Below, piece after piece: positions 36,565-37,621 of a DNA stretch of 46,658 bases. Numbering within the stretch: position 1 is the stretch's first letter; each line of letters opens with the position of its first letter. Where the stretch lies: NCBI GenBank assembly GCA_016787995.1, contig JAEUTB010000079.1, positions 1 through 46,658 of the forward strand. The letters run 5' to 3'. The translations under genes were made by a program, and so were the position numbers. The notes under the pieces were generated by a model, which was not told the origin of the DNA, searched no databases, and was given only the letters and a program-made list of their open reading frames with translations. Source of the DNA: Flavobacteriales bacterium (GTDB lineage Bacteria > Bacteroidota > Bacteroidia > Flavobacteriales_F > PHOS-HE28).

Positions 36565-37020
36565 CTACTGGGCTTCCAGTTTGGTTACCATCACCCCACC
36601 AGCGGTGAGCAGATCAAGGCCTGCGGGGTCCTTGTACGCCTCTTGGTAGACGAGTCTCTTGATGCCCGCCTGTAGGACAAGCTTGCTGCATTCCTTGCAC
36701 GGGGAGTGTGTCAGGTATAACGTAGCACCCCTTGCGTTGTTCGTGCTTTTGGCCACCTTCAAGATGGCATTGGCTTCGGCATGCAACACATACCAGTGGG
36801 TCAGTCCGGCAGGGTCCTCGCAATCGTTGGGGAAGCCGGTGGGCGTGCCGTTATAGCCATCGCTGATGATCATGCCATCCTTCACGATGATGGCACCGAC
36901 CTTCTTCCGGGTGCAGTGGCTAAGCTTGGCCCATTCCAGCGCCATCCGCATATAGGCGCGGTCGTACCGGTCCTGCTTGGCAGGTTCGGCATGCACGATG
37001 GCGTCTTGCGCGGTCGACAT
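36565..37020 (-). CDS. dCMP deaminase (ComEB-type)
   Basis: 151 aa from ATG 37020 (MSTAQDAIVH). Zinc-dependent cytidine/deoxycytidylate deaminase fold: HAE in VLHAEANA and PCxxC in SPCKECSK bind zinc, and the third His/Cys loop RKKVGAIIVKDG is typical of the dCMP group. It makes dUMP for thymidylate synthesis. A frame extending to 37119 reads through the tRNA relic and palindrome and is rejected. A hairpin at 37036-37062 lies just upstream. Confidence 0.93.
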   Translation of the reverse strand: MSTAQDAIVHAEPAKQDRYDRAYMRMALEWAKLSHCTRKKVGAIIVKDGMIISDGYNGTPTGFPNDCEDPAGLTHWYVLHAEANAILKVAKSTNNARGATLYLTHSPCKECSKLVLQAGIKRLVYQEAYKDPAGLDLLTAGGVMVTKLEAQ

Positions 37021-37035
37021 CAGGGGCGTGAAAGT

Positions 37036-37062
37036 AGTACGGCCGCAAGGTGCGGCCGTACT
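37036..37062 (-). other. Strong 12-bp hairpin between the tRNA locus and dCMP deaminase
   Basis: AGTACGGCCGC (37036-37046) pairs with GCGGCCGTACT (37052-37062), with an extra A-T pair at the loop. It stands between the tRNA relic and the deaminase start. No T-run follows on either strand, so I cannot call it a terminator with confidence; it may separate or process the tRNA transcript. Confidence 0.5.
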
Positions 37063-37066
37063 GGTG

Positions 37067-37112
37067 TACCCAGGGCGGGACTCGAACCTGCCTTCGGCAG
37101 GCAGGCCCGCCG
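37067..37112 (-). pseudogene. 3' relic of tRNA-Leu(CAA) joined to a palindrome
   Basis: Bases 37067-37088 are identical to 37166-37187, the discriminator base, acceptor strand and T arm of the intact tRNA-Leu, 99 bases away. At 37087 the match runs into CCTGCC-TTC-GGCAGG and then diverges. Only the 3' end of a tRNA is preserved, so it cannot be functional. It lies on the same strand as the intact gene. Confidence 0.8.
37087..37105. repeat. CCTGCC/GGCAGG palindromic repeat, copy 1
   Basis: CCTGCCTTCGGCAGGCAGG: hairpin arms CCTGCC and GGCAGG around TTC, followed by a further CAGG. Closely related to the perfect palindrome at 37537-37556. It replaces the 5' strand of the T stem in the tRNA 3' relic. 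Confidence 0.75.
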
Positions 37113-37165
37113 AACCCATTTAGGGTAAAAGGCAAACCCGTTCCTGCCCCCTTTCAACATTACAG

Positions 37166-37247
37166 TACCCAGGGCGGGACTCGAACCCGCACGACTTGCA
37201 TCACTGGTGTTTGAGACCAGCGCGTCTACCGATTCCGCCACCTGGGT
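37166..37247 (-). tRNA. tRNA-Leu (anticodon CAA)
   Basis: Class II tRNA on the minus strand. Acceptor arm 5' ACCCAGG pairs with CCTGGGT; discriminator A at 37166; D arm with GAATCGGTAGA; anticodon stem CTGGT/ACCAG with loop CTCAAAC (anticodon CAA, reading UUG); long variable region; T arm GCGGG-TTCGAGT-CCCGC. CCA is not encoded. It lies seven bases downstream of the GIY-YIG gene stop. It appears intact and functional. Confidence 0.95.
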
Positions 37248-37253
37248 AGGTGT

Positions 37254-37511
37254 TCAAACTCGTTCGCGGTTGCGAATTTCTCGAAGAAACTCCTTTCCCG
37301 CGCCGGACTTGAAGAACTTTTCTCGTTTCCGAGCCTCGATCCTGTCCGGCAAATACTCGACGATCAATACTTCAAACGGTCGATACGCACGAGTGGTTCT
37401 TTCTTTTCCCCGCTGATGCTCATCGATCCTACGTGTAACATCCAAACTCAGCCCCACATAGATGTACTCCTTTTCCACACTGGCCAAAGCGTACACTGCG
37501 CAGGACATCAT
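37254..37511 (-). CDS. Small GIY-YIG nuclease-domain protein next to tRNA-Leu
   Basis: 85 aa from ATG 37511 (ATG 37508 and TTG 37514 also open). The GIY-YIG core is VYALASVEKEYIYVGLSLDVTRRIDEH: VYA and IYVG stand for the two halves of the signature, the first Arg is in TRRIDEH and the catalytic Glu in RIEARKREKFFK. This single-domain URI type is frequent in Bacteroidota genomes, and its role is unknown. The stop lies seven bases from the 5' end of the tRNA-Leu gene, and the start lies just past the anticodon arm of a tRNA-Leu 5' relic, so the whole gene is boxed between tRNA-Leu sequences. Confidence 0.85.
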   Translation of the reverse strand: MMSCAVYALASVEKEYIYVGLSLDVTRRIDEHQRGKERTTRAYRPFEVLIVEYLPDRIEARKREKFFKSGAGKEFLREIRNRERV

Positions 37512-37514
37512 CAA

Positions 37515-37583
37515 AACTGGTGGTCAGGCCAGCGCGCCTGCCTGCCGGCAGGCAGGTCTACCGATTCCGCCACCTGGGTAGGT
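37515..37583 (-). pseudogene. 5' relic of tRNA-Leu interrupted by a palindrome
   Basis: Bases 37556-37583 are identical to 37224-37251, i.e. the 5' acceptor strand and most of the D arm of tRNA-Leu plus four flanking bases. A 19-base insert (37537-37555) then breaks the D stem, after which the tRNA pattern resumes as GCGCTGG...CCAG, an anticodon arm whose loop no longer reads CAA. It ends at the start codon of the GIY-YIG gene, for which it forms the leader. Confidence 0.8.
37537..37556. repeat. CCTGCC/GGCAGG palindromic repeat, copy 2
   Basis: CCTGCCTGCCGGCAGGCAGG, a perfect 20-base palindrome. Copy 1 (37087-37105) has the same arms with a TTC loop. Both copies sit inside tRNA-Leu relics. 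No other copy is seen in this window. Confidence 0.8.
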
Positions 37584-37621
37584 ATTGGGGCTGCGAAGAT
37601 AGTGGTCCAAGGGGTTCCACA

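Follow-up and report, generated by a model that had tools for sequence, protein, structure and literature searches.

Small GIY-YIG nuclease genes that stand beside tRNA and tmRNA genes look like a widespread and apparently undescribed minimal mobile gene. The window, by which we mean the whole 46,658-nt stretch of Flavobacteriales contig JAEUTB010000079.1 analysed here, carries one such gene at its tRNA-Leu(CAA) locus together with tRNA-Leu fragments and palindromes, an arrangement that an earlier note had read from the sequence and that ARAGORN, Rfam, Pfam and repeat matches confirm. We favour, with a probability of about two thirds, the reading that the unit is a minimal selfish gene of a homing-like kind, one that has no integrase and parasitises tRNA and tmRNA genes. 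Comparative data suggest that the unit is mobile, as the earlier note had proposed, but they place the 3' tRNA relic outside it and extend the targets beyond tRNA-Leu and the hosts beyond the Bacteroidota. Searches of open-licence papers that paired GIY-YIG with tRNA genes or tmRNA, with palindromes and with the CPR or Flavobacteria yielded no account of such genes in bacterial chromosomes.

The tRNA-Leu locus of the window

The features of the locus, in their order on the minus strand, are as follows.

37594..37601, minus: promoter-like element TATCTTCG, native to the tRNA-Leu gene and today upstream of the 5' relic; its spacing before the intact tRNA at empty sites equals that before the relic at occupied sites
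37557..37583, minus: distal (host-facing) part of the 5' tRNA-Leu relic, 4 nt of leader plus tRNA positions 1-23; exact 28-nt repeat with the intact gene (37556-37583)
37537..37556, minus: perfect 20-nt palindrome CCTGCCTGCCGGCAGGCAGG in the D arm of the 5' relic; identical sequence at GIY-YIG loci in other phyla
37515..37536, minus: proximal (GIY-facing) remainder of the 5' relic, diverged in sequence and truncated in the anticodon arm
37254..37514, minus: small GIY-YIG (UPF0213/Slx1-like) nuclease gene, from PF01541, conserved residues, AlphaFold2 and purifying selection
37165..37247, minus: intact tRNA-Leu(CAA), from ARAGORN and Rfam
37106..37164, minus: spacer between intact tRNA and 3' relic; a similar spacer without a GIY-YIG gene occurs in genomes G041 and G015
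37087..37105, minus: second palindrome CCTGCCTGCCGAAGGCAGG, 19 nt, at T-arm position GGG|TTCGA; a relative of the D-arm palindrome
37066..37088, minus: 3' relic of tRNA-Leu, which spans 23 nt from T loop to acceptor end and matches exactly throughout
36565..37020, minus: flanking dCMP/cytidine deaminase gene (PF00383), landmark for the orthologous site in 43/45 genus genomes

The 28-base exact repeat described in the earlier note (37556-37583 and 37224-37251) is present, but it is a tRNA copy only in part, since its first four bases are leader 5' of the tRNA; its end at base 37556 is common to the repeat and to the palindrome, which the note had correctly placed within the D arm. The 3' repeat is likewise exact but 23 nt long, one more than had been claimed. 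Relative to the intact tRNA, the 5' relic matches at 22/22 positions on its distal side and at 13/22 on its proximal side. In shuffled windows, chance matches to either palindrome average 0.04. The promoter-like element is one that we take to resemble the Bacteroidota -7 box TAnnTTTG.

The GIY-YIG ORF, which likely starts at an ATG at about 37508-37511, encodes 86 amino acids matching Pfam GIY-YIG (PF01541) over residues 6-70 (E=6e-14), with no second Pfam domain and no separate DNA-binding domain. Residues Y19, R29, H33 and E65 are invariant among 27 proteins, and AlphaFold2 predicts a single compact fold (pLDDT 95). The nearest solved structure by sequence is 1zg2 (UPF0213 protein BH0048; E=3.6e-17), with Slx1 next (1.5e-9), and Foldseek ranks the two in the same order; NCBIfam and PHROGs hold no family for the protein.

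The GIY-YIG gene is the sole gene between the 5' relic and the intact tRNA, with no integrase there. The intact tRNA is the only one that ARAGORN and Rfam find in the window, and no other CAA copy was found in the 74%-complete assembly; nor is any promoter evident in the window between the GIY-YIG gene and tRNA-Leu(CAA). From the last two points we infer that the GIY-YIG gene may be shielded through co-transcription with an essential tRNA. The Rfam search of the window returned the tRNA and no group I or II intron, and homing of a group I intron is rejected on this ground.

The 3' relic with its palindrome is a separate event from the GIY-YIG unit, because genomes G041 and G015 carry the relic without a GIY-YIG gene and G042 and G037 carry the gene without the relic. 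At the neighbouring deaminase gene, the mechanical ORF (36565-37119) begins within the 3' tRNA relic. Translation more likely starts at 37020, and an automatic annotation of this gene may thus overstate its length.

Occupied and empty sites within the genus

Comparison of close relatives, which the earlier note had proposed as a check, found that the arrangement is not common to all and that, across the genus, occupied sites alternate with clean empty ones. With the deaminase gene as landmark, the tRNA-Leu(CAA) site could be placed by orthology in 43 of the 45 genomes of the genus, many of which have clean empty sites, and on a 23-genome genus tree the Leu-site GIY-YIG gene requires 5 changes for 5 carriers. 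The source genome (G000) has a second such gene beside tRNA-Met, where the tRNA-Met copy is interrupted by a different palindrome. This site, upstream of era, is filled in G000, G015 and G022, whereas most of the other congeners examined have it cleanly empty, so that both sites of the source genome are patchily occupied across the genus.

Flanking sequences at empty and filled sites show insertion within the tRNA gene. Between filled G042 and empty G038, the stretch of 25 nt ahead of the relic is 96% identical to that ahead of the empty tRNA. For the 25 nt ahead of the intact tRNA identity is only 57%, and over the 45 nt that follow the intact tRNA it is 95%, which indicates that the relic holds the native promoter and 5' end and that the intact copy joins the native 3' flank. 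This evidence is clearest for G042 and for G037, which resembles G042 in its flanks. In G000 the promoter still precedes the relic, with the downstream flank obscured by the 3' relic, and G031 and G024 hold decayed tandem arrays whose flanks are uninformative for insertion. The flank pattern at the tRNA-Met site upstream of era is similar to that at the tRNA-Leu site.

GIY-YIG genes beside tRNA and tmRNA genes

The earlier note had also suggested looking for enrichment of this GIY-YIG group beside tRNA genes, and the enrichment is overwhelming, co-oriented and accompanied by partial tRNA copies. Among 98 relatives, a co-oriented tRNA or tmRNA gene stands within 300 bp at 24 of 30 tabulated loci. 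In a class-wide search, 273 of 396 genomes gave a GIY-YIG match, and a tRNA or tmRNA gene accompanies 88 of 111 non-redundant loci (within 200 bp at 80/111, where ~1% is expected), figures that describe this clade of ~85-aa proteins and not all GIY-YIG proteins, as the 111 loci are mostly best-scoring matches. All 88 associated loci are co-stranded with their tRNA or tmRNA. The targets include tRNA-Met (31), Leu, tmRNA (9), Ala, Arg, Ser, Asp, Val, Phe, His, Asn and Glu, and near 72 of 79 tRNA loci there are partial copies of the same tRNA, usually interrupted by a palindrome of 14-40 nt. At GIY-YIG loci without a called tRNA, Rfam found little other RNA, and inspection by eye reveals tRNA relics at nine or more of them. 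The tree also contains several further lineages of small GIY-YIG genes that do not neighbour a tRNA.

When named genomes were scanned independently, using a profile built on the GIY-YIG type of the window, 80 loci emerged, 73 of them within 300 bp of a tRNA and all of these on the same strand; 72 are at tRNA-Leu (five anticodons) and one is at tRNA-Ser. The hosts belong to the Bacteroidota, Ignavibacteriota, Chlorobiota, Balneolota, many Patescibacteria and Omnitrophota, and outside the Bacteroidota tRNA-Leu relics occur at 23 of 26 loci, often with the identical 20-nt palindrome.

A tmRNA-associated clade (L029, L032, L111, L118, L121, L128, L137 and L143) has its GIY-YIG genes 117-515 bp downstream of tmRNA, with differing repeats in the spacer. 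At two further loci (L019 and L157), related GIY-YIG genes lie apparently inside other coding sequences and not at tRNA genes; at L019 the host coding sequence is a tyrosine-recombinase-like gene. A tblastn search of phages at 1e-5 found no relatives of the Leu-type or Met-type proteins, and collections of plasmids and viral contigs held no relatives either; an origin from phage, plasmid or virus is rejected for this reason.

Target specificity and protein evolution

Clades of the GIY-YIG protein track tRNA isotype much more than host family. On the protein tree, isotype changes 29 times, compared with 55.7 times when shuffled (0/200 shuffles as low), and host family changes 76 times, compared with 87.8. 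Proteins from different families that share an isotype are 50.6% identical, compared with 40.0% for those from the same family with different isotypes. Such tracking is expected of target-specific selfish genes and less so of a host gene. Nor does GIY-YIG similarity correspond to host similarity: between G000 and G037 the GIY-YIG proteins are 85.5% identical and the Era proteins 75.9%, and between G000 and G042 the values are 63.8% and 93.5%. For the G000-G037 pair, a dN of 0.08 indicates purifying selection on the GIY-YIG protein, and synonymous divergence near saturation (dS about 2.6) means that no recent transfer has been caught.

A vertically inherited, often lost host gene that profits from its linkage to tRNA, for example in tRNA processing, tRNA-gene recombination or defence, would account for the strong purifying selection, for the co-orientation and co-transcription geometry and for the long-lived isotype-specific clades. 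We nevertheless consider it improbable, because nearest relatives alternate between filled and empty at two loci, GIY-YIG similarity departs from host similarity, and truncated tRNA copies and arrays are unexpected for a housekeeping gene.

Unit anatomy and tandem arrays

The units come in two mirror-image layouts. In the first, as in the window, a palindrome-bearing 5' part of the tRNA is followed by the GIY-YIG gene and then by the intact tRNA; in the second, the order is intact tRNA, terminator, GIY-YIG gene, palindrome-bearing 3' part of the tRNA and a further terminator, and the T run of the tRNA terminator often abuts the GIY-YIG start codon. Palindrome events in relics comprise 74 pure insertions and 30 replacements; among the replaced segments are tRNA-Met positions 38-47 and, in tRNA-Ala and tRNA-Phe, the entire anticodon arm. 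Identity to the local tRNA is 95-97% on the host-facing side of the relic and 74-77% on the GIY-facing side, with the host-facing side the better match in 67 palindrome events and the worse in 10, an asymmetry that is partly truncation, since GIY-facing windows can run into the start of the GIY-YIG gene.

Tandem arrays have up to 10 units (at a spacing of 457 bp), with further arrays of 5 (365 bp) and of 3 (369 bp). Each unit consists of the GIY-YIG gene, relic and terminator, and the repeating units are 0.3-0.5 kb long and have no integrase. The ten 457-bp units (L089; G144:C9:904000-912500) lie downstream of tRNA-Met with identical spacer sequence between them.

We regard it as very improbable that these loci were left as scars by conventional islands integrating into tRNA genes, or arose by chance tandem duplication with a GIY-YIG gene as the remnant. 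A regenerated target with a displaced fragment is indeed the known footprint of integrase islands (Islander, PMC4383910). Against such an origin stand the short, integrase-free repeating units, the pairing of specific GIY-YIG clades with specific tRNAs across phyla, the displacement of a 5' half in the upstream layout, and the several other small GIY-YIG lineages that have no tRNA.

Palindromes across genomes

Each of the 18 host genomes tested from outside the Bacteroidota carries the 20-mer of the window, with up to 2 mismatches allowed, at 1-36 copies, where a reversed control gave 0. Within the class, the 20-mer or a near variant occurs in 54/273 genomes with a GIY-YIG match and 5/123 without, counts that include copies at GIY-YIG loci and are uncorrected for relatedness, and all 16 genomes with four or more palindrome copies have a GIY-YIG match. 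Met-type loci have a different palindrome, TCCGNN..NNCGGA, in 20/36 cases, and Met-type host genomes are enriched for the TCCGCC..GGCGGA type (23/29 compared with 10/31), again with GIY-locus copies counted and relatedness uncorrected. At many GIY-YIG loci there is no strict palindrome within 200 bp. Strict placement of palindromes at stem-loop boundaries is not supported: 37 of 74 lie within 1 nt of one, compared with 34% expected, and the positions are not independent.

Palindrome-bearing tRNA copies also occur without a nearby GIY-YIG gene, at two contigs of the source genome (G000:C126 and G000:C20) and in G041 and G015, and any model has to leave room for the gene having been lost or acting in trans. 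At G000:C20 (L050; 1732-1823 and 1907-1999), tRNA-His and tRNA-Lys in a tRNA cluster are each interrupted in the T arm, precisely at GGG|TTCGA, by a CCTGCCT..AGGCAGG palindrome, and no GIY-YIG gene is seen nearby. At G000:C126 (L053; about 470-650), an intact tRNA-Ala is followed immediately downstream by a tRNA-Ala relic whose anticodon arm and T arm contain palindromes, with no GIY-YIG gene between the two. A ~96-bp tandem repeat at G000:C83 (L052; about 600-900) has a CCTGCCTACCGG..AGGCAGG palindrome in each copy and is unrelated to tRNA.

These distributions bear on a further explanation, in which the palindrome itself is the mobile entity: a REP-like hairpin family would be moved by the GIY-YIG nuclease into tRNA-gene arms or swapped for them, and the GIY-YIG gene would stand at tRNA genes because its hairpins collect there. 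The occurrence of the 20-mer in every non-Bacteroidota host tested speaks for this, as do the enrichment of palindromes in genomes with a GIY-YIG match and in Met-type hosts, the replacement of whole anticodon arms or of positions 38-48, and the fact that the nearest solved structures after UPF0213 are the Slx1 branched-DNA nucleases. We think it unlikely, given that many GIY-YIG loci lack a strict palindrome nearby, that the case counts take in palindromes inside GIY-YIG loci, and that stem-loop boundaries are not clearly preferred.

Proposed mechanism and significance

Under the favoured reading of a homing-like selfish gene, a small UPF0213/Slx1-type GIY-YIG nuclease would promote a break in a particular tRNA gene that is without the cassette, and the break would be repaired from a cassette-bearing copy, with the tRNA itself as the homology. 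The inserted piece would consist of the palindrome, the GIY-YIG gene and a replacement part of the tRNA; one intact tRNA would be regenerated, and the displaced native half would stay on the far side of the GIY-YIG gene with the palindrome at the junction. The GIY-YIG gene and the tRNA would be co-transcribed, either from the tRNA promoter or through the tRNA terminator, and repeats between unit copies would permit tandem amplification and clean loss. Cutting, homing repair and participation of the palindrome in recognition or at the junction are presumed steps. A point against homing is that the intact tRNA beside the GIY-YIG gene retains whatever site would be cut, which leaves self-protection unexplained. 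The palindrome-bearing tRNA copies with no GIY-YIG gene close by also count against it, as does the failure of the phage, plasmid and viral collections to yield a relative that might point to a vehicle.

More tentatively, and as a possibility that we take seriously, the units may form a so far undescribed class of minimal mobile elements spread over several phyla, each of which would pair a free-standing GIY-YIG nuclease of the UPF0213/Slx1 type with its cognate palindrome and have one tRNA or tmRNA target per lineage, splitting the gene at a hairpin arm and regenerating it, and amplifying in tandem without integrase, transposase, intron or phage. If our reading is true, one of the commonest small unassigned nuclease groups in the Bacteroidota and several other phyla would be a selfish family on tRNA genes, a cellular counterpart to phage SegB, and it would account for numerous partial tRNA genes and palindromes in genomes. 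It would also provide dozens of isotype-specific natural variants for studying how an 85-aa nuclease picks out a single tRNA gene, and it would tie a palindromic repeat to a nuclease lineage in a way that is open to test.

Comparison with known systems

Among solved structures, the best sequence and fold matches are UPF0213 proteins (1zg2, BH0048; 1ywl, EF2693) and Slx1. The solved UPF0213 proteins are labelled hypothetical in the structure database, and to our knowledge no link of this family to tRNA genes has been described; Slx1 is a structure-specific nuclease whose eukaryotic partner is Slx4. REP sequences, which go with RAYT transposases, and the Rickettsia palindromic elements are short dispersed palindromes, some of them tied to a nuclease lineage. 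The nuclease here is GIY-YIG, in contrast to the Y1 (HUH) transposase of REP/RAYT systems, and the present palindromes differ from both groups in being inserted into tRNA copies and in recurring with the same sequence in several phyla. An intron-encoded homing endonuclease would lie in a group I or II intron, where this gene does not lie.

Tyrosine-integrase islands in tRNA and tmRNA genes (Islander, PMC4383910) regenerate the target and leave a displaced fragment at the other end. The GIY-YIG units share the regenerated tRNA and the displaced fragment; they differ in having no integrase, in their size of 0.3-0.5 kb, in the palindrome within the displaced fragment and in displacing 5' as well as 3' halves.

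SegB of phages T4 and T6 is a free-standing GIY-YIG homing endonuclease (PMC13096335, Nat Commun 2026;17:3468), whose gene neighbours tRNA genes of many isotypes. SegB cleaves inside tRNA genes at the motif RAWTSGAAC, the complement of the T-loop box, and drives tandem amplification of a 718-bp tRNA + segB unit (PMC13096335). The bacterial units resemble it in placing a nuclease gene beside tRNA genes of many isotypes and in forming tandem arrays. As in a free-standing homing endonuclease of the SegB type, we find the GIY-YIG catalytic domain, a lineage-specific target and patchy presence at orthologous sites, but not a separate DNA-binding domain. Whereas SegB is a phage gene, the bacterial proteins are ~85 aa, the catalytic fold alone, reside in cellular chromosomes and are closest to UPF0213/Slx1; they accompany tRNA genes split with palindromes, which they would presumably cut. 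Phage SegB is the closest functional analogue of the bacterial GIY-YIG units, and there is a real chance that these, while akin to the free-standing GIY-YIG homing genes, are a class of their own.
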